Assembly (NCBI GenBank): GCA_018402235.1
Contig: JAGYJJ010000004.1
Span: 455,256 to 519,255 of the forward strand
Source of the DNA: Candidatus Nanopelagicales bacterium
Lineage (GTDB): Bacteria > Actinomycetota > Actinomycetes > S36-B12
DNA length: 64,000 nucleotides
Reading direction: 5' to 3'
The notes under the pieces were generated by a model, which made no database searches, was not told where the DNA came from, and was given only the letters and a program-made list of their open reading frames with translations. Shown piece after piece: positions 2,916-35,874 of the stretch (position 1 is the first letter of the stretch; each line of letters starts with the position of its first letter). A program made the position numbers and the translations under genes.

Positions 2916-4124
2916 ATGCGTAGAGCCAAGTTTATGGTGCCGCTGGTGATCTCAGCGGCTCTCGTCATTTCCGCGTGCTCGTCAGGGGACAGCGCATCCG
3001 AGTCCACCGCAGCGGACACAACGGCCGCCGAAACAAGCGTCGAGGAAACTCCTGCCGATACCTCCACCGAGACTGCCGAGGCGGAGGCTTCCGGCGACGT
3101 CTTCTGCGGAAACTCAATCGAGGAAATCGCTGCAGCCGCGCAGGCTGAAGGTCAGGTCAACTTGATCGCCCTCCCAGACACCTGGGCCAACTACAAGGGA
3201 ATCTTGGAGTCCTTCCGCGATAAGTACGGTGTTGAAGCGCCGGTAGCCAACCCGAACGCTTCTTCGGCAGACGAACTCACTGCGGCACGTACCCTCGCTG
3301 GGCAGCCCGATATGCCCGACGCTTTCGATATCGGTCCATCGTTCATCCAAGAAGCCTTGAACGAAGGTCTCATCACGTCTTACCAGACCACAAACTGGAA
3401 CGAGATCCCCGACAACCTCAAGGGCGAAAATGGCGAGTGGATCGGTTCCTACTACGGCATCATGGCTATCGCGTCCAACACCACAATCGTGCCGAACGCG
3501 CCTCGCACCTGGGCAGACCTGAAGAAGCCCGAGTACAAAGGAATGGTCACCCTGAACGGTGATCCTCGCGAAGCGGGAGCAGCATTCGCGGCCGTTGTGG
3601 CTGCCGCCCTCGCGAATGGTGGTTCGTACGAAGACATCATGCCGGGCATCGAGTACTTCGCCGAGCTCAAATCCTCCGGAAATCTCCAGACGATCGACGT
3701 TACCGAAGCAGCCTTGCTGTCCGGTGAAGTACCGATCGCCTTGGACTGGACGTACAACTTCCCCGGGCTCCAGGCACAGTTGGCGGAAGTCGGCTTCGAG
3801 ATGCAGGTCGTTATCCCCGCCGATGGACTCTACGGGGCCTACTACGCGCAAATGCCCGTCGCTAACAGCCCTCATCCTTGTGGCGCTCGCCTGTGGATGG
3901 AGCACATCACCGGTAACGACGGGGCACTTGGCTACCTCGAAGGTGGGGCCATCCCCGCTCGCCTAGCGGCAATGCTCGAGGCTGGCGTGATCCCCGATGA
4001 GGCCACCGCCAATCTTCCCCCCGCGGAAGACATCGCCCAGATCACCTTCCCCACTGCCGATCAAACAGAAGCGATGAAGGCTCAACTCACTGAAAATTGG
4101 GGCCCGATGGTCGCTGACGCTTAA
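2916..4124 (+). CDS. ABC importer substrate-binding lipoprotein
   Basis: Extracellular solute-binding lipoprotein of the iron/thiamine/polyamine-like class (type II periplasmic-binding fold), 402 residues. The signal peptide ends in a lipobox with the lipidated Cys21. A low-complexity Ser/Thr/Ala/Glu tether to about residue 60 precedes the folded domain. Two permease genes and an ATPase gene follow, which fixes its role as the capture component. A perfect hairpin separates it from the permeases, as is common where the binding protein must be made in excess. The ligand is unknown; the phosphoesterase that ends the cluster hints at a phosphorylated compound. Confidence 0.88.
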   Translation: MRRAKFMVPLVISAALVISACSSGDSASESTAADTTAAETSVEETPADTSTETAEAEASGDVFCGNSIEEIAAAAQAEGQVNLIALPDTWANYKGILESFRDKYGVEAPVANPNASSADELTAARTLAGQPDMPDAFDIGPSFIQEALNEGLITSYQTTNWNEIPDNLKGENGEWIGSYYGIMAIASNTTIVPNAPRTWADLKKPEYKGMVTLNGDPREAGAAFAAVVAAALANGGSYEDIMPGIEYFAELKSSGNLQTIDVTEAALLSGEVPIALDWTYNFPGLQAQLAEVGFEMQVVIPADGLYGAYYAQMPVANSPHPCGARLWMEHITGNDGALGYLEGGAIPARLAAMLEAGVIPDEATANLPPAEDIAQITFPTADQTEAMKAQLTENWGPMVADA

Positions 4125-24572: not shown

Positions 24573-24616
24573 GATATTTGGCCACCTACCAGGTCAGAGC
24601 CTGGCAAGGTGGCCTC

Positions 24617-26848
24617 ATGCCATCTCGAATCTGCCCGTTGTGCGAAGCCACATGTGGCCTTGTCCTGTCCGTCGATGGTGCCGAGGTCATCGAGGTACGC
24701 GCAGATGCCGAAGATGTCTTCAGTCGGGGCTACATCTGCCCCAAGGGCGTATCGCTCGGTGAGTTACACGCCGACCCACGGCGGCTGACTACTCCCTTGA
24801 TCAAGGGCGACGATGGGGAATTCCATCCCGCCAGTTGGGATGAGGCCTTCGGTGTGATCCGCGATCGACTTCATCCGATCCTGACCGAGCACGGCCCCCA
24901 ATCCGTTGGCCTTTTCCTTGGAAACCCCAATGTCCACAATCTGTCCGGCCCCTTCTACCTGCCCGCCTTCATCAAGGCGTTAGGCACCACGCAGCGCTTT
25001 TCAGCGAGCACCGTCGATCAAATGCCCAAGCAAGTGGCGTGTGCGCTCATGTACGGAACCGCGTTATCGGTGCCCGTGCCAGACATTGATCGCACTCACT
25101 ACTTTTTGATGCTGGGCGCCAATCCCCTGGTGTCCAACGGTTCGATGATGACCGCGGCCGATTTTCCGCGCCGGCTGCGGGACCTGCGCAAGCGCGGAGG
25201 GCGCCTCGTAGTGGTCGATCCGATCCGAACACGAACAGCCGCAGTGGCAAGTGAGCATCTGCCGATCCGGCCTGGTTCTGATGCGTTGTGGCTGGCGTCG
25301 TTGGCCCAGTTGGTCACAAGCGATGCGCGCCTCCAAGCCGCCGAGTCATGGATAGCTGCGGCGGAATGGGACTCGGTGGTGGCCCTACTCACCCCCTTCA
25401 CCCCCGAGGCCACCGCGCCGATCACCGGGATAGACCCGGACACCACTCGGCGCATTGCCGATGAACTTCGTACGGCCCCCACGGCAGCTGTCTACGGACG
25501 CATGGGAACCACCACATCAGGACTCACCGCCGGAGACCAGGTTGTTCCGATGGCCACGCTCGCTTCTTGGCTGATCGACATCATCAATATCGCCATCGGA
25601 TCCTTGGATCGACCCGGCGGGGTGATGTTCCCCCTGCCGGTGGCCGGCGGTCCGTCCACCGAAGGCACGCCAGGTTCGGGCCACGGTGTGCAGATTCCCG
25701 GACGACGCCGAACCCGAGTTCGCGGCCTTCCCAGTGCCCTGGGTGAGTTCCCTGCGGCAGCCCTCGCCGAAGAGATCGACACACCTGATCCCAAGACAGG
25801 CGAACACATCCGAGCGGTGTTCGTGATCGGAGGCAACCCCGTCCTGTCCACGCCGAACCAACAGCGACTCACCAACGCGTTCGAGCAACTCGATCTGATG
25901 GTCAGCGTGGATCCTTACCTGACCGAGACGAGTTCACTGGCCGATGTGGTCCTACCAGTGGCCTCGCCGCTGACTCGAGCGCACCACGATGTGGTGTTCA
26001 ACAACCTCGCGGTACGAAATCAAGCGCGCTACTCCCCTGCCGTGTTCGAGGTTCCCGCGGGCGAGAAGGACGAAACCGAAGTGCTGGCGCAACTGGCCGC
26101 CATCGCTGCTGGCATCGCCTCCGGACATGAGCCATTGCCGCAGCACATTGACGACCTGATCGCCTACACAGTGGCGGCCGGTGCCTGCAACGACCAGGCT
26201 TCTCGGGCCCACGGACGCGCTCCAGAGGAGCTCTTGGAGGCGGTGGCTCACCGAACCGGCGTGGACCGACTTTTGGACCTTCGAATCCGCTCGGGTCCCT
26301 ACGGCGACGGCTTCGGCGCCCACCCCGAGGGACTTACCTTGCAAAGTCTGATGGATGCTCCGCATGGCATCGATCTGGGGCCACTGCAACCTCGGTTACC
26401 CGAAGTACTGCGAACTCCATCTGGGCGCATCGATGTCGCGCCCGATGTATTGCTGGAGGCACTCTCGCAGGCAGCCCGCCTGCTCACCGAGCCGGCTGCC
26501 ACCGCGAGGTTCACCCTGGTGGGTCGACGCCAACTGCGCAGCAACAACTCCTGGATGAAGGGACTGCCGACGCTGACCGGCGGCTCCAACGTGCCCACAG
26601 CCATGATCCACGCCCTCGATGCCGCAGAACTTGGAATCCTCGATGGTCAACCCGTGACGGTCTCAACGAAGACGGGGTCCATCACATTGCCGGCAGCGGT
26701 GCGTGAAGACGTCACACAAGGATGTGTATGCATTCCGCATGGCTGGTCGCAGGCAAATGTGAACGCTTTGGTCGACGTGACGGCGATCGACCACCTAGCC
26801 GGGACTTCGGTGCTCAGCGGGCTGCGAGTAGATCTGACTCCCGCCTAG
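24617..26848 (+). CDS. Molybdopterin oxidoreductase with one [4Fe-4S] cluster
   Basis: Cytoplasmic DMSO-reductase-superfamily enzyme, 743 residues. The N-terminal cluster ligands are C6, C9, C13 and C41. The bis-MGD domains follow, with GANPLVSNGSMM, VVDPIRTRTA and IRPGSDALW, and a C-terminal molybdopterin-dinucleotide domain begins near 620. ATG 24617 puts the Cys motif six residues in; a longer in-frame start at 24578 overlaps the terminator. There is no Tat signal. No partner subunit is adjacent. A formate-dehydrogenase-like or assimilatory role is possible, but the substrate is unknown. Confidence 0.86.
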   Translation: MPSRICPLCEATCGLVLSVDGAEVIEVRADAEDVFSRGYICPKGVSLGELHADPRRLTTPLIKGDDGEFHPASWDEAFGVIRDRLHPILTEHGPQSVGLFLGNPNVHNLSGPFYLPAFIKALGTTQRFSASTVDQMPKQVACALMYGTALSVPVPDIDRTHYFLMLGANPLVSNGSMMTAADFPRRLRDLRKRGGRLVVVDPIRTRTAAVASEHLPIRPGSDALWLASLAQLVTSDARLQAAESWIAAAEWDSVVALLTPFTPEATAPITGIDPDTTRRIADELRTAPTAAVYGRMGTTTSGLTAGDQVVPMATLASWLIDIINIAIGSLDRPGGVMFPLPVAGGPSTEGTPGSGHGVQIPGRRRTRVRGLPSALGEFPAAALAEEIDTPDPKTGEHIRAVFVIGGNPVLSTPNQQRLTNAFEQLDLMVSVDPYLTETSSLADVVLPVASPLTRAHHDVVFNNLAVRNQARYSPAVFEVPAGEKDETEVLAQLAAIAAGIASGHEPLPQHIDDLIAYTVAAGACNDQASRAHGRAPEELLEAVAHRTGVDRLLDLRIRSGPYGDGFGAHPEGLTLQSLMDAPHGIDLGPLQPRLPEVLRTPSGRIDVAPDVLLEALSQAARLLTEPAATARFTLVGRRQLRSNNSWMKGLPTLTGGSNVPTAMIHALDAAELGILDGQPVTVSTKTGSITLPAAVREDVTQGCVCIPHGWSQANVNALVDVTAIDHLAGTSVLSGLRVDLTPA

Positions 26849-28569: not shown

Positions 28570-30293
28570 CAGTGACCACTCCCGGTGCGGCTCGCGCTGC
28601 TACTGATTTGGGGCTGTGAGCGTGCACTCGGCGGTGCTAATTCAGGATGGTGAAGATCGAAAGCCGGACGTTCGGAACGGATCCGGGGCAGTGATGTGAA
28701 GTTATGCCGTGGTGGCGGACAACTCGTGGCCCATTCCAAGGATCCACCCCAGCCCCAGGGATCATCGACATTCACGTGAGGTGCGTTCTTCCACGTGGTG
28801 AGGACGTTCCAGATGAAGAAGAGCGTGGAGAAGCCCAAGATCGCAGCACCCACGGTCGAGACGATGTTCAGTGTGGTGAAGTCGTCGACCGGGAGGTAGT
28901 CGCCGTAGCGACGCGGCATGCCCTGGACCCCCAACCAGTGCTGAACCAAGAACGTGACCTGGAAGCCAACAAACAACAACCAGAAGTGGATCTTGCCCAG
29001 ACGTTCGTCGAGCATCTTGCCGGTCATCTTGGGCCACCAGAAGTAGAAGCCGGCGAACATCAAGAACACAACCGTGCCGAAGACGGTGTAGTGGAAGTGG
29101 GCAACCACGAAATAGCTGTCTGAGACGTGGAAGTCCAGCGGAGGCGCGGACAAGATGATGCCGGTCAGACCACCGAAGAGGAAGGTGATGAGGAATCCCA
29201 TGGTCCACAACATGGGGGTATCCATCGACACTGAGCCCCTCCACATAGTGCCGATCCAGTTGAAGAACTTCACACCGGTAGGCACAGCGATAAGCATCGT
29301 CATCAAGGCGAAGAAGGGCAGGTAAACCGACCCGGTCACGTACATGTGGTGCGCCCAAACAGCAACGGACAGTGCGCCGATGGCCATAGTGGCGAAGATC
29401 AAACCCTTATAGCCGAAAATCGGCTTGCGGGAGAACACCGGAATGATCTCGCTGGCGATGCCGAAGAACGGCAGAGCGATGATGTAGACCTCCGGATGCC
29501 CAAAGAACCAGAACAGGTGCTGCCACAAGATGGCGCCACCATTCTCTGGAGCGAACACAACGCTGCCGAATTGCCTATCGATGAACATCACCACCAGTGC
29601 CGCGGCGAGCACCGGGAAGGCAATCAGGACGAGCACCGACGTGATGAAGATCGTCCACGTGAAGATCGGCATCCGGAACATGGTCATTCCGGGCGCGCGC
29701 ATCGTGAAAATAGTGGTGATGAAGTTGACCGCACCGAGGATGGTTCCCAGTCCGCCGAGGGCCAAGCCGAGGAACCACAGATCTGCCCCAGCTGTTGGCG
29801 AGAAGACTGCGTTACTCAAGGGTGCGTAGGCGAACCAACCAAACGATGCGGCTCCACCCGGGGTAAGAAATCCGGCGGCAACCACCAGGCCACCGAACAA
29901 AAACAGCCAGTACCCGAACATGTTCAAGCGGGGGAACGCAACATCGGGCGCACCGATCTGCAGCGGCATGATGACGTTGCCAAAGCCCACGAAAAGCGGT
30001 GTAGCGAACAAGAACAGCATGATCGTGCCGTGCATGGTGAACAGCTGGTTGTACTGCTCGAGGGAAATGATTTGCAGGCCCGGCACCGCGAGTTCAGCTC
30101 GGATGAGCAGCGCCATGACGCCCGCGATGAAGAACCACATAACAGAGGTGACCAGGTACATGTACCCGATGAGTTTGTGGTCTGTGGAGGTGACCCAGTT
30201 GACGATCGACTTACCCAGGTTTGGCCTACGTGGTGTGTAGACGGGCGCCTCAGGCGCCGACCGCGTGACCGGTGGCTCGTTCAGGATCGTCAT
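28569..30293 (-). CDS. ctaD: Cytochrome c oxidase subunit I
   Basis: Catalytic heme-copper subunit, 574 residues and about twelve helices. Visible landmarks are the heme a ligand in [10 protein letters not shown], the CuB/Tyr region [19 protein letters not shown], the HHMY His pair ([10 protein letters not shown]) and the heme ligands in [17 protein letters not shown]. The E-V-Y-I-I-A-L-P form places it in the A-type oxidases. It overlaps ctaC by four bases and ctaF by one, so the three form one operon. Confidence 0.96.
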
Positions 30294-31150
30294 AGCCTGC
30301 GCTCCCCAGGACGCTGTCCTTCGTTTGTGATGCGGTCTGTGTCCAATACTCCGGTTTTCCCCGCGGCGCGCAACTCGGACATCTTGGCGTTGAACTCATC
30401 TCGCTCGACGATTTTCACCTGGAAGAGCATCCGAGCGTGGTCCACGCCGCACAGTTCAGCGCACTTGCCAGCGTAGGTGCCGAGTCTGTCCGGAGTCAGT
30501 TCGAAGACGTTTGTCTTGCCGGGAATCAGGTCCATCTTGAACAAGAAGGCGGGCACCCAGAAGGAGTGGATGACGTCCGGTGACTTCAATTCGAAGCGGA
30601 TCTTCTCATCGACTGGCAGGTACAGCGTGGGCGGTTCACCTACTGAGCCTTCCCCATAGGGAACGCCAACGTCGTAGGCGTCTTGGTCGAGGTAGTTGAA
30701 AGCCCACGACCAGCGGAAGCCCACAACCTCGACGGTCTGCTGTTCATCGTTGCCGACGGTCAAAATCTCACTTTGGTCGCGAGCCGTGAACCAAAAGAGC
30801 CCGAGGATCATGATCAGCGGCACAACCGTGTAGAGAGCCTCGATAGGGATGTTGTACTTGGTCTGCGCGGGAACCTCATTGGGATGACGACGCCGATAGG
30901 CCACGGCCGCCCAAATCATCAAAGCCCAGGTCACGATGCCCACAGCCCAGGCCGCGATCCAGGAACCGTTCCACAGGTTTTGAATGATCGATGCTTCCGC
31001 CGATGCTGTCTCTGGCAGGTCGAAGAAGAAGGCTTCATTGGCGGTGCAGCCTGACAACACAACACCTGCTCCGGCCAGCGCGAGGACGCGAAGTGAAGTA
31101 CGCGAAGAACGGGTACCACCCGTGGATCGGGATCGACCTAAGGACGCCAC
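30290..31150 (-). CDS. ctaC: Cytochrome c oxidase subunit II
   Basis: A 286-residue lipoprotein subunit carrying the CuA centre that receives electrons from QcrC. The lipobox Cys is at residue 35 (VLSGC). Two transmembrane helices follow near 55-75 and 105-125, then the cupredoxin domain with the CuA ligands in [12 protein letters not shown] and the WSWAFNY aromatic electron-entry patch. It is first in ctaCDF and is divergent from the desulfurase-like gene, with 144 bases between them. Confidence 0.95.
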
Positions 31151-31294: not shown

Positions 31295-32431
31295 GTGATC
31301 TGGCCCGAACCGGCACCCCATCCCCCGGCCGGGTATCTCGATGCCGTGGGGGGGCAACCCGTTTTACCCGTAGCCCAGCGCGCCTTTGCTGCAGCACTTG
31401 ACCAGGCGTGGCCGGACCCGGCTCGATTGCACCATGGCGGTCGCCGCGCCGGTCTGCTCTTGGATACCGCTCGGACTGCGATCGCCCAATTCCTTGACGC
31501 CCGAACTGCGGACACCTACCTCGGTGCCTCATCGGCCGATCTGCTGCGCGCCTGCGTCAGCGGATTGTTCGCGGCCCGACTGGCAGCTGGTGCGCCACCC
31601 CGGGTAGTCATCAGCGAAGCCGAATCCATGGCCGTGGTCTTCGCCGCGCGGTCGTGTCCGGGGGCTGAGGTGGTGACCGTTCCGGTCACGACAACCGGTG
31701 CCATCGATACCGACCTCTTCTCCGCTGCCATCGCGCCGGGAGCCGCACTCGCATGCGTTCAGGTGGCCAACGCCGAGGTTGGAACCCGTCAGCCATTGGC
31801 CCACGTTCATCGGCTGTGCCGCGATGCGGGGATTCCGCTCGTGAGCGATGCCACCCAGGTGGCAGGTCACGATGACGTCGGTCACAACTGGGATGCCCTC
31901 GTTGCCTCCCCGCGTGATTGGGGTGCGCCATCCGGTTGCGCTGTCCTGGTCGTTCTACCGGGAACCCGGTGGCAGCCACCCGAGGCACCCGATCGTGGGT
32001 GGGTGGGCGGTTTCCCGGACGTGGCTGCGGCAGCGGCCGCGGCGACAGCTGCCGAATACGTAGGTCCCCATTGGCGAGCACAGGCCGATCAGCACCGTTC
32101 GATGATCGATCGAGTGCGCGCCGTCGTGAACGATCTGCCCGGGGTCCGCGCCGTGGGCGACCCAGAAGACCGGCTACCGCACGTAGTGACGGTTGTCATT
32201 GACGACGCGATCGGTGAAGTAATCGTCACCGATCTTGATTCTCGAGGGCTCGCAGTTGCCAGCGGCTCAGCATGCACGGCCGACAACCGCATGCCCAGTC
32301 ACGTGCTGGAGTCGATGGCGATCATCACGCCGGCAAGTGTGCGCATCTCTTTGCCCTACGGCTGCTCGCAACAGACCGTCGACGATCTCCTGCAAGGACT
32401 ACCAGCAGTGCTCACTTCGGCTCGCCGCTGA
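31295..32431 (+). CDS. Cysteine desulfurase-like aminotransferase-V protein lacking the PLP lysine
   Basis: A 378-residue fold-type I protein. It keeps the PLP-ring Asp185 and Gln188 (SDATQVAG) and a loop Cys327 in SGSACT, as in cysteine desulfurases. The segment that should read S-x-H-K is S-P-R-D at 205-208, so the Schiff-base Lys is Asp and the His is Arg. The bases (tcc ccg cgt gat tgg) are read clearly. Without the Lys, normal desulfurase chemistry is not expected. GTG start. It is divergent from ctaC and upstream of adoK, erpA and nadA, so an iron-sulfur connection is tempting but unproven. Confidence 0.8.
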   Translation: MIWPEPAPHPPAGYLDAVGGQPVLPVAQRAFAAALDQAWPDPARLHHGGRRAGLLLDTARTAIAQFLDARTADTYLGASSADLLRACVSGLFAARLAAGAPPRVVISEAESMAVVFAARSCPGAEVVTVPVTTTGAIDTDLFSAAIAPGAALACVQVANAEVGTRQPLAHVHRLCRDAGIPLVSDATQVAGHDDVGHNWDALVASPRDWGAPSGCAVLVVLPGTRWQPPEAPDRGWVGGFPDVAAAAAAATAAEYVGPHWRAQADQHRSMIDRVRAVVNDLPGVRAVGDPEDRLPHVVTVVIDDAIGEVIVTDLDSRGLAVASGSACTADNRMPSHVLESMAIITPASVRISLPYGCSQQTVDDLLQGLPAVLTSARR

Positions 32432-32438
32432 GCCCGCC

Positions 32439-33119
32439 TCAGCTCAAGCAGGGGTCTTCGCGGATTAAGTCCGGTAGTGCGGCGAGGTATGAGTCTCGCG
32501 ATACCTTCGTCACTCCCAAACTCACCAGGTGGGGCGTGGACCACTGCACGTCGATCAATCGCTGTCCTGGACAGCCACGCATACGTTCAACAAGCGCGAC
32601 GAGCGCAACCTTCGAAGCGTCACGGACTTCGTGGAACATGGACTCACCCGCGAACAGCCCACCTATTTCAACGCCGTACAGGCCTCCCACGAGATTGCCT
32701 TCCCACCACACCTCCGCCGAATGCGCATAGCCGAGTTCATGAAGGTGCACGTAGGCATCGATGAATTCCTCAGTTATCCACCCCTGCGGGCGGTTCGGAT
32801 CGGCGCACCCACGCATGACGTCTTCGAAACGTTCATCGAAGGTGACCGTGAATCGTCGTTGCGCCTTCGCTAACGATCGAGACACCCGCAGGTGGTCGAG
32901 TCGGAGTACACCGCGCGGGTCCGGGGACCACCATCCGAGCGTGTGGCCACCCCCTAGCTCAGATCCGATCGGTACATCCATAGGAAACATCCCACGGGAG
33001 TAACTCAGCACTACCGTTCCCGGATCCAAACCTCCGCCGAGGGCTACCAGATCCTCGCCCGCTTCAGCCTCCGCGGGATCAGGCAGATTCCACAACGCGG
33101 TTGGAAGTTCCCCCTGCAC
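32439..33119 (-). CDS. aat: Leucyl/phenylalanyl-tRNA-protein transferase
   Basis: N-end-rule enzyme moving Leu or Phe from tRNA onto proteins with an N-terminal Arg or Lys, which marks them for ClpS-ClpAP-type degradation. 226 residues, near full family length. Visible family blocks are GLVALGG-like DLVALGGGL, YSRGMFPM, WWSPDPRGVL, EVWWEGNLVGGLYGVEIG and the GESMFH segment. GTG start at 33119. It lies 20 bases after the kinase gene on the same strand and converges with the desulfurase-like gene. Confidence 0.93.
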   Translation of the reverse strand: MQGELPTALWNLPDPAEAEAGEDLVALGGGLDPGTVVLSYSRGMFPMDVPIGSELGGGHTLGWWSPDPRGVLRLDHLRVSRSLAKAQRRFTVTFDERFEDVMRGCADPNRPQGWITEEFIDAYVHLHELGYAHSAEVWWEGNLVGGLYGVEIGGLFAGESMFHEVRDASKVALVALVERMRGCPGQRLIDVQWSTPHLVSLGVTKVSRDSYLAALPDLIREDPCLS

Positions 33120-33139: not shown

Positions 33140-34126
33140 TTAAGAACGAGGACAGGAAACGTGTTGCTCGACCTCAGCTGCGGCGTCGTCGCCGTAGGCA
33201 CGCGCCATGCGTTCCAGGAAGTGCCGCTGGGATAGTTCGTATTCCTGAGTGCCCACGGTCTCGATCACGTACGTTGCAACCAGCGACCCCACTTGAGCCG
33301 AGCGTTCATCGCCCAACCCCCACGCTTGGCCGGCGAGGTATCCCGCGCGGAAGCCATCACCAACTCCCGTGGGATCGGCCTTGCACTCCTCCTTGGGCAC
33401 CACCACCTGAACCGGCTCGGCACCCCGGCGCTCAATTCGAGCGCCATCGGGACCCATAGTGATGACCCGCACGCTCACCATGGAAGCCAGATCAGCCGAC
33501 GTCCAACCGGTTTTTTGTTCGATCAATGCGGCCTCGTACTCGTTCGTGAACAAGTACTCGGCACCTTCGATTAACGGCTTTATCTCTTCGCCATCCATCC
33601 GAGCAAGTTGCTGCGAAGGGTCAGCGGCAAACGGGTACCCGCGGAACCTGCATTCCTCGGTATGGCGGAGCATCGCTTGCGGATCATTGGCACCGATCAA
33701 GACGACATCGGTGCCACCGGCTTGGTCCACGATTGGCTTGAGTTCGATATTGCGAGCCTCGGACATCGCCCCGGGATAGAACGAGGCGATCTGGTTTTGC
33801 TCGATATCGGTCGTGCAGACGAAGCGGGCAGTGTGGTGAGCATCGGAGACGTGCACACCGCTGGTGTCCACACCATGGCGCTGCAACCAAGACTCATAAT
33901 CGGCGAAGTCTGGTCCCACGGCCCCTACTAACACCGGGCTCAGCCCCAGACAGCCCATGCCGAAGGCGATATTGGGGGCAACTCCCCCGCGGCGAATCTG
34001 CAGATCCTCAACCAGGAAGGACAAGGAGACCTTGTCGATTTTGTCCGCGACGAGCGAGTCCGAGAACTTCCCCGGAAAACTCATCAGGTGATCGGTTGCG
34101 ATGGATCCAGTGATCAAAAGGGTCAC
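33140..34126 (-). CDS. adoK: Adenosine kinase, PfkB family
   Basis: Phosphorylates adenosine to AMP in purine salvage. About 328 residues, closely matching mycobacterial AdoK as I recall it: TGSIATDHLM at the start, KVSLSFLV, RGGVAPNIAF, IASFYPGAMSEARNI, and the catalytic PTGVGDGFRAGYL. The last holds the C-terminal PfkB signature with its catalytic Asp. I chose GTG 34126, which gives the N-terminus of the family; an in-frame GTG at 34150 would add eight residues. Neighbouring erpA and nearby cta genes repeat the Mycobacterium order. Confidence 0.92.
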   Translation of the reverse strand: MTLLITGSIATDHLMSFPGKFSDSLVADKIDKVSLSFLVEDLQIRRGGVAPNIAFGMGCLGLSPVLVGAVGPDFADYESWLQRHGVDTSGVHVSDAHHTARFVCTTDIEQNQIASFYPGAMSEARNIELKPIVDQAGGTDVVLIGANDPQAMLRHTEECRFRGYPFAADPSQQLARMDGEEIKPLIEGAEYLFTNEYEAALIEQKTGWTSADLASMVSVRVITMGPDGARIERRGAEPVQVVVPKEECKADPTGVGDGFRAGYLAGQAWGLGDERSAQVGSLVATYVIETVGTQEYELSQRHFLERMARAYGDDAAAEVEQHVSCPRS

Positions 34127-34178
34127 GGGAGCGGACCCTATCGGCCGCACTTAGCCGCCGTGCTGGAGAGTCAACCGA

Positions 34179-34529
34179 TCAGTGGAAGGAATCCCCGCAC
34201 GCGCACGACCCACCCGCGTTCGGGTTATCGATCGTGAAGCCCTGCTTTTCGATGGTGTCCACGAAGTCGATCGTGGCGCCACTTAAGTACGGAGCGCTCA
34301 TCCGATCGGTCACGACGCCCACGCCACCGAAATCATTGACGACGTCGCCATCGAGGCTGCGGTCATCGAAGAACAACTGGTAGCGAAGCCCCGAGCACCC
34401 ACCTGGTTGCACAGCGATGCGCAAAGCGAGGTCCTCTCGACCCTCGGCCTCAAGCAGCGTCTTCACCTTGGAGGCGGCCGTTTCGGTCAAAATGATGCCA
34501 TCTGTGGACTCAACGGTGTCTGTGCTCAT
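34179..34529 (-). CDS. erpA: Iron-sulfur cluster insertion protein ErpA
   Basis: A-type carrier delivering Fe-S clusters to target enzymes, 116 residues, full length. The three conserved Cys are in PGGCSGLRY and in GSCACGDSF. It is divergent from nadA, whose product needs a [4Fe-4S] cluster, and precedes adoK on the same strand. Cytoplasmic. Confidence 0.95.
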   Translation of the reverse strand: MSTDTVESTDGIILTETAASKVKTLLEAEGREDLALRIAVQPGGCSGLRYQLFFDDRSLDGDVVNDFGGVGVVTDRMSAPYLSGATIDFVDTIEKQGFTIDNPNAGGSCACGDSFH

Positions 34530-34683: not shown

Positions 34684-35874
34684 ATGACAGGGACATTCGT
34701 GGAGCCAGAGCCCACCGCGCTGGCGTTGCTGCTGCTCGGCCAGCAAGCCGACCCCGGCAGCGAGCGCGGCGTTGAGTGCCCTGGGGATCTGCCGGCCCCC
34801 TCGGACCCCGATCTGGTGTCCCGGGCGAGGGCAGCCAAGGAAGCCCTGGGAGATCGGCTGTTCATCCTCGGTCACCACTACCAACGCGACGAAGTCATCG
34901 AGTTCGCGGACGTGACCGGCGACTCCTTCAAGCTCTCCCAGCAGGCCGCCGCTCGCCCCGAGGCGGAGTTCATCGTCTTTTGCGGCGTGCATTTCATGGC
35001 CGAGAGCGCGGACATCCTTACCGAAGATTCCCAACAGGTGATCCTTCCCGATCTTGCCGCCGGGTGCTCCATGGCGGACATGGCCGCCATCGGACAGGTG
35101 GAAGACTGCTGGCGCGTACTGGAGCGCGTTGGGGTGGCGGAGAGCACCATTCCGATCACCTACATGAATTCCTCGGCGGCTATCAAGGCCTTCACCGGCA
35201 AGCACGGTGGTTCGGTGTGCACGTCGAGCAACGCCGAGCGCAGCATGACCTGGGCTTTCGAGCGCGGCGAGAAGGTGTTGTTCCTCCCGGACCAGCACCT
35301 TGGACGCAACACCGCTGTCCGCGATCTGGGCCTGTCTCTTGACGACTGCGTCATCTACAACCCTCACAAGGCAAATGGCGGTCTGACCGATGAGCAGATC
35401 CGAACAGCCAAGGTGCTGCTTTGGCGCGGCCACTGCTCGGTACACGGGCGCTTCACCGCTGAGTGCGTCGATGATGTCCGCGAGCAGGTACCCGGCGTGA
35501 ACGTCATCGTGCACCCCGAGTGCGATTACTCAGTTGTGGAGAAAGCCGACCAAGTGGGATCGACAGAGAAGATCATCACCGCCATCGAGAATGCACCTAG
35601 CGGATCGGCGTGGGCCGTGGGCACCGAGTTGAATCTGGTCAAACGCCTAGCGCACGCGAACCCGGACAAGCAGGTCGTTTACCTGGACAAGACCGTGTGC
35701 TTTTGCTCGACGATGAACCGGATCGACCTTCCCCACCTGGTGTGGTCGCTAGAGAACCTCGTTGCGGGCAACGTCGTGAACCAAATCGTCGTCGATCCCG
35801 ATACCCAGTATTGGGCGAAGGTCGCCTTGGACCGCATGCTTGCCTTGCCCGGCCCAGCTCCGTCCCAGGACTGA
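34684..35874 (+). CDS. nadA: Quinolinate synthase
   Basis: Condenses iminoaspartate with dihydroxyacetone phosphate to quinolinate, using a [4Fe-4S] cluster, in de novo NAD synthesis. 396 residues from ATG 34684. The GHHYQRDEV, FMAESADIL, GCSMADMA, MNSSAAIKAF, VCTSSNA, GRFT and HPECDYSV blocks are all present; cluster Cys lie in GCSMAD, HPEC and the VCFCSTM region. An earlier in-frame start at 34567 gives an extension unlike the family. nadB and nadC are not next to it. Confidence 0.94.
   Translation: MTGTFVEPEPTALALLLLGQQADPGSERGVECPGDLPAPSDPDLVSRARAAKEALGDRLFILGHHYQRDEVIEFADVTGDSFKLSQQAAARPEAEFIVFCGVHFMAESADILTEDSQQVILPDLAAGCSMADMAAIGQVEDCWRVLERVGVAESTIPITYMNSSAAIKAFTGKHGGSVCTSSNAERSMTWAFERGEKVLFLPDQHLGRNTAVRDLGLSLDDCVIYNPHKANGGLTDEQIRTAKVLLWRGHCSVHGRFTAECVDDVREQVPGVNVIVHPECDYSVVEKADQVGSTEKIITAIENAPSGSAWAVGTELNLVKRLAHANPDKQVVYLDKTVCFCSTMNRIDLPHLVWSLENLVAGNVVNQIVVDPDTQYWAKVALDRMLALPGPAPSQD

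Follow-up and report, generated by a model that had tools for sequence, protein, structure and literature searches.

A desulfurase-like protein without the PLP lysine at a ctaC-linked locus of Actinomycetia, a candidate persulfide relay

PMC7585200 (citing Marinoni 2012, Yamanaka 2013, and Pagnier 2014) describes A. fulgidus IscS as inactive in cysteine desulfuration because aspartate replaces an essential lysine, and as contributing a cysteine to the ligands of the [2Fe-2S] cluster on IscU. The same source names M. acetivorans IscS1 as another protein without the lysine. In the literature searched, we found nothing relevant beyond these two proteins on Lys-less bacterial desulfurases, actinobacterial desulfurase–TusA pairs, or ctaC-linked desulfurases, no biochemistry for any member of the ctaC-linked locus, and no functional study of a ctaC-linked desulfurase–TusA fusion. 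In M. tuberculosis IscS (4isy) and E. coli IscS, of which TusA is a known partner (complex 3lvj), the PLP-site Lys, His, and Thr are intact.

Here we analyze a protein encoded in a 64,000-nucleotide stretch of DNA (the window; Table 1) from a freshwater actinobacterium, which its named relatives assign to Candidatus Nanopelagicales. Judged from sequence, the protein represents an independent bacterial instance of the Lys-to-Asp change already known from A. fulgidus IscS, with its own origin inside Actinomycetia. The lysine appears to have been lost several times independently among relatives while the gene stayed under selection. What had been a single archaeal case thereby turns out to have evolved repeatedly in bacteria, where one locus carries Lys-bearing orthologs in some genomes and Lys-less ones in others; comparing the two offers an experiment of nature on what in a desulfurase is important beyond its PLP chemistry. 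We read the protein, at about even probability, as a PLP-independent pseudo-desulfurase in which Cys327 most likely serves as persulfide acceptor or relay, ancestrally towards TusA. A first-pass annotation had already suggested a Cys-only persulfide carrier or scaffold, which stays the best reading, but made no mention of the recurrent loss, the eroding PLP site, the lack of any lysine in the protein, the TusA partner, or the A. fulgidus precedent.

Table 1. Features of the desulfurase-like protein and its neighborhood, in window coordinates
Feature	Position	Strand	Remarks
Lys-less desulfurase-fold CDS	31295..32431	+	GTG start, 378 aa; PF00266 5e-29, 102 bits
Codon 81, Ala at the PLP-phosphate-binding Thr position (E. 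coli IscS T76)	31535..31537	+	G80 lost too
Codon 111, Ser at the PLP ring-stacking His position (E. coli IscS H104)	31625..31627	+	
Codon 159, Asn (E. coli IscS N155 equivalent)	31769..31771	+	Invariant in 59/59 Lys-less rows
Codon 185, Asp kept at the PLP N1 position (E. coli IscS D180)	31847..31849	+	
Codon 208, GAT = Asp at the PLP Schiff-base Lys position	31916..31918	+	Alignment to solved IscS chains
Codon 327, TGC = loop Cys, motif GSACTA	32273..32275	+	Invariant in all compared orthologs, Lys-bearing and Lys-less
Codon 350, Arg near the C terminus	32342..32344	+	Invariant in all rows
ctaC, cytochrome c oxidase subunit II	30290..31150	-	Divergent neighbor, conserved across Actinomycetia
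aat-like, leucyl/phenylalanyl-tRNA-protein transferase by sequence	32439..33119	-	Convergent neighbor
PfkB-family kinase	33140..34150	-	Syntenic marker
erpA/HesB-type A-type Fe-S carrier	34179..34529	-	Syntenic marker
nadA, quinolinate synthase	about 34684..35874	+	Syntenic marker; start codon approximate

Fold and cofactor site of the window protein

The protein has the class V aminotransferase/desulfurase fold by its profile match (Table 1), and an AlphaFold2 model built on 37 sequences (the window protein and the named loci) reached a pLDDT of 92.8 and a pTM of 0.91. Its only segment with pLDDT < 50 is residues 326–330, the Cys loop. The closest solved structures are M. tuberculosis IscS (4isy, Z 46.9) and A. 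fulgidus IscS (4hvk, Z 46.1), with further matches to 4r5f (Z 46.0), a D199K mutant of A. fulgidus IscS, and to E. coli IscS from the IscS–TusA complex (3lvj_B, Z 45.5). The predicted structure is thus that of an IscS whose Cys loop is disordered.

Residues 205–208 read S-P-R-D, as the first-pass annotation had it, and Asp208 aligns on the Schiff-base lysine ("PRDWGAPSG" against "GHKFGGPPG" in 4isy). There are no lysines anywhere in the 378 residues, so a substitute PLP lysine, which had been named as one way to overturn the claim, is ruled out, and the usual internal aldimine is indeed not possible. With residue roles that we take to follow E. coli IscS (T76, H104, N155, D180, Q183, H205, K206, and C328), the further PLP contacts lost are G80 (to Ser), T81 (to Ala), the stacking His (to Ser111), and the His205 equivalent (to Arg207). 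Asp185, Gln188, and Cys327 are all present, in line with the earlier statement that the Asp and Gln of the pocket and the loop Cys are kept, and Asn159 and Arg350 sit at positions that in class V enzymes are known to contact the substrate carboxylate.

Among the features that mark a desulfurase, the protein therefore has the fold and the loop Cys that it shares with the M. tuberculosis and E. coli enzymes, and lacks the Schiff-base Lys, the stacking His, and the phosphate-loop Gly-Thr. A. fulgidus IscS (4eb5, 4eb7, and 4hvk) likewise combines the IscS fold and loop Cys with Asp at the identical position, but it keeps the stacking His and other lysines, whereas the window protein has lost this His, the phosphate-loop Thr, and every lysine. 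On these residues, desulfuration of free cysteine by known PLP chemistry is no longer available to the window protein, and it would bind no PLP in the cell. Intact and Lys-less members cannot be told apart here by NCBIfam cut-offs: for TIGR03402 the window protein scores 144 bits and the intact IscS of the same genome 361.5, both below the cut-off of 530.75. Caution is needed with the annotation "cysteine desulfurase" in this group, which may name proteins incapable of the reaction by the known mechanism.

The genome has other means of cysteine desulfuration, since an intact canonical IscS (G000:C1:110969-112126, motif SGHKIGGP, about 33% identical to the window protein) adjoins MnmA and a SUF cluster carries intact SufS and SufU. 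In the relay that we favor, the ancestor would have been a cysteine desulfurase paired with the sulfur carrier TusA. Cys327 on its mobile loop would now take sulfane sulfur from an intact desulfurase, either the IscS beside MnmA or SufS/SufU, and the resulting persulfide would be passed on, with TusA as the presumed ancestral recipient and the adjacent TusA since lost in the window's clade.

The same intact IscS and SufS could instead be the targets of a regulatory or structural partner, a hetero-oligomer subunit or allosteric pseudoenzyme in which Cys327 has no redox or sulfur role. Pseudoenzymes often regulate active paralogs, and both the fold, kept at high predicted confidence, and the purifying selection described below would fit such a role. 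We regard it as unlikely, as Cys327 and the surrounding loop are retained in 100% of 59 Lys-less ortholog rows, which indicates that the Cys itself matters, and the gene does not adjoin the intact desulfurase genes.

Loss of the lysine and selection on what is kept

Orthologs were sought across 59 related genomes, the second match per genome being the canonical IscS. A residue census of 108 ortholog rows gave 49 with Lys, 30 with Asp, and 29 with other residues (mostly Ser, Thr, Met, Gly, and Ala); Lys-bearing class orthologs read "SAHKWGGP" at the site, and the genomes with a Lys-less protein probably come mostly from metagenome assembly. On the suggested check of whether the lysine is missing family-wide, it is absent from 59/108 rows and present in the other 49. 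On a gene tree built without the Lys column and with Cellulomonas left out, parsimony gives at least four Lys/no-Lys changes, two of them forced by starred branches, the exact number being soft on this quick tree. Losses fall in a large Nanopelagicales group, where an additional one may have occurred, in another group (rows L083, L087, L089, and L098), and in two single lineages. Cellulomonas species are also without Lys, again with Asp, and make a cultivable system for the Lys-less protein. In the window's 24-row clade (SH-aLRT 99) 22/24 rows have Asp, whereas other Lys-less groups are variable at the site, a contrast that may point to a preference for Asp in this clade.

Two sequences carry titles that look wrong. 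CAMAWO010000027.1 (L135), titled Bifidobacterium breve, holds a Nanopelagicales-like Lys-less ortholog with TusA, and JANWJC010000165.1 (L141), titled Acidobacteria, holds a typical actinobacterial ortholog; both are likely mislabeled or mixed metagenome bins.

Lys-bearing homologs, which together with a codon error would have undone the original claim, do exist; the codon error does not. Turning GAT into any Lys codon takes two base changes, more than one miscall would produce, and Asp occupies the site in all same-genus orthologs that cover it (59–80% identity), which excludes an assembly error. A decaying pseudogene or assembly error is accordingly very improbable as an account of the gene, given the same loss in independent assemblies, intact Asp reading frames in other genus members covering the site, and a dN/dS of about 0.1. 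What speaks for decay is the absence of a clear ortholog from most of the order's family f6 and one genus member (L010; probably also RGQW01000010, L133) that matches only to residue 275. In L010 (G001:C315, 1501-2322) the remainder was not found in any frame, as after a truncation, rearrangement, or assembly break, and RGQW01000010.1 is probably similar.

Rates of change agree with selection on the protein. By NG86, dN/dS is 0.09–0.12 within the trio of the window gene and its two closest relatives, with 0.09–0.10 in the pairs that contain the window gene, and 0.07–0.28 for other Lys-less pairs, against 0.13–0.19 for Lys-bearing pairs and 0.08 for canonical IscS; these ratios are rough, several dS values being near saturation. 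Because Lys-less ratios are like those of Lys-bearing pairs, the gene is under purifying selection rather than decaying, and together with the intact reading frames this rules out a pseudogene.

The cofactor site is among the most eroded parts. Across the 59 Lys-less orthologs, the residue typical of Lys-bearing proteins is retained in 0% for Lys, 25% for G80, 20% for T81, 25% for His111, and 22% for Ser205, whereas Cys327, Gly324, Asn159, Glu161, and Arg350 are unchanged in 59/59 and Asp185 is kept in 51/59. Of 104 positions conserved among Lys-bearing orthologs, the Lys-less proteins differ widely at 17, and PLP contacts make up a larger share of these 17 than expected (5/6 PLP-contact positions lost vs. 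12/98 others; P = 3.6e-4, Fisher's exact test; P = 1.9e-3 without the Lys itself), the P values serving as a guide only since rows are related by descent.

The retention of Asn159, Arg350, and Asp185 is not obviously needed by a pure relay, and may be structural. It also bears on the idea of a different enzyme, which would either bind PLP or PMP noncovalently or work without PLP on a substrate that resembles an amino acid and is gripped by Asn159 and Arg350. Lys-less, PMP-using relatives of PLP enzymes exist (e.g., ColD), and the two residues are invariant with Asp185 mostly kept; against this, the phosphate loop (G80 and T81) and stacking His are lost in most Lys-less rows including the window, unlike what is expected of a retained cofactor, and we consider such an enzyme quite unlikely. 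Because a simple relay leaves the kept Asn159 and Arg350 unexplained, we also entertain, as an unlikely but more far-reaching variant, a recurrently evolved, cofactor-free Actinomycetia sulfur family in which the desulfurase pocket and Cys327 would bind or transpersulfidate cysteine persulfide or a similar compound, making the protein a desulfurase-derived sulfurtransferase or sensor.

Gene order and the TusA partner

The nearest neighbors of the gene are ctaC (divergent) and aat (convergent). The order ctaD< ctaC< >desulfurase (<aat) <pfkB <erpA >nadA recurs class-wide in the loci drawn, with small losses and rearrangements, and the position in the window between divergent ctaC and aat/pfkB/erpA/nadA matches that of the Actinomycetia ctaC-linked pair. 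By this gene order, the window gene is the syntenic ortholog of an Actinomycetia-wide, ctaC-linked desulfurase paralog. Members in Streptomyces, Microbispora, and Kribbella are orthologs by synteny and tree at 39–45% identity; they keep Lys, His, and TusA, and the window protein is without all three. The first-pass annotation was right that erpA and nadA lie close by, both downstream, but they form transcription units separate from the desulfurase-like gene; an operon with them is ruled out, as strands differ and aat intervenes. Their nearness alone does not explain the Lys-less protein, because the arrangement is ancient and common to Lys-bearing orthologs.

A TusA gene follows almost every class ortholog among the loci compared, and TusA is fused in frame to the desulfurase in Streptomyces and Kitasatospora orthologs. 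In the window's order, TusA lies directly downstream of the Lys-less gene in 27 genomes, and all copies read retain its CPxP cysteine. These loci point to a sulfur-trafficking module, a desulfurase with TusA beside ctaC/erpA/nadA, for which the literature searched held no functional study. In Streptomyces cyaneofuscatus (L153, 6001-7374), a Lys-bearing ortholog and a TusA domain (PF01206, 55 bits) share one frame beside ctaC, and other Streptomyces and Kitasatospora loci among L150–L207 are likewise Lys-bearing desulfurase–TusA fusions. In Cellulomonas, adjacent TusA is kept in some species, among them the Lys-less C. fimi, and was not seen in others (loci compared: L137 and L140, C. fimi and C. 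algicola, vs. L188 and L198, C. pakistanensis and Cellulomonas sp.).

No TusA was found at the locus in the window, its genus, or nearest genera. Nor can one be hidden in the window, since aat ends 8 bases past the desulfurase-like CDS and leaves no room. In eight genomes of the genus and nearest genera, several of them incomplete, TusA was undetectable anywhere. That the window's clade is without TusA at the locus, and some of its genomes without any detected, counts against a relay. The only TusA of the window's genome (G000:C1:207000-213500, at 2950-3171, minus strand) lies between DsrE2-like and 4Fe-4S/NrfD (polysulfide-reductase-like) proteins, in a separate sulfur-metabolism cluster, and is a possible alternative partner.

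The main rival to the persulfide relay is a role like that of A. fulgidus IscS, as a scaffold or cluster ligand, in which Cys327 would coordinate or dock an Fe-S cluster assembled on ErpA or SufU and would deliver no sulfur. In its favor, the inactive A. fulgidus IscS is one of the nearest structural matches, carries Asp at the very same position, and is described in PMC7585200 as supplying a Cys ligand to the cluster on IscU; the Lys-less gene also neighbors erpA and nadA. However, these two genes are equally near Lys-bearing orthologs, the partner conserved at the locus is TusA, which carries sulfur and is no scaffold, and where the A. fulgidus partner is IscU, the only NifU_N/IscU-family match found in the window's genome (93.7% complete) is SufU by TIGR01994, beside SufS. 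We hold a cluster-ligand role to be possible but improbable, and retain the relay as the preferred reading.

The molybdenum cofactor is a known sink of TusA sulfur. A large molybdopterin-oxidoreductase-like ORF lies at 24578-26848 (+) in the window, just after the cytochrome b (qcrB) gene, and suggests that the organism uses this cofactor.
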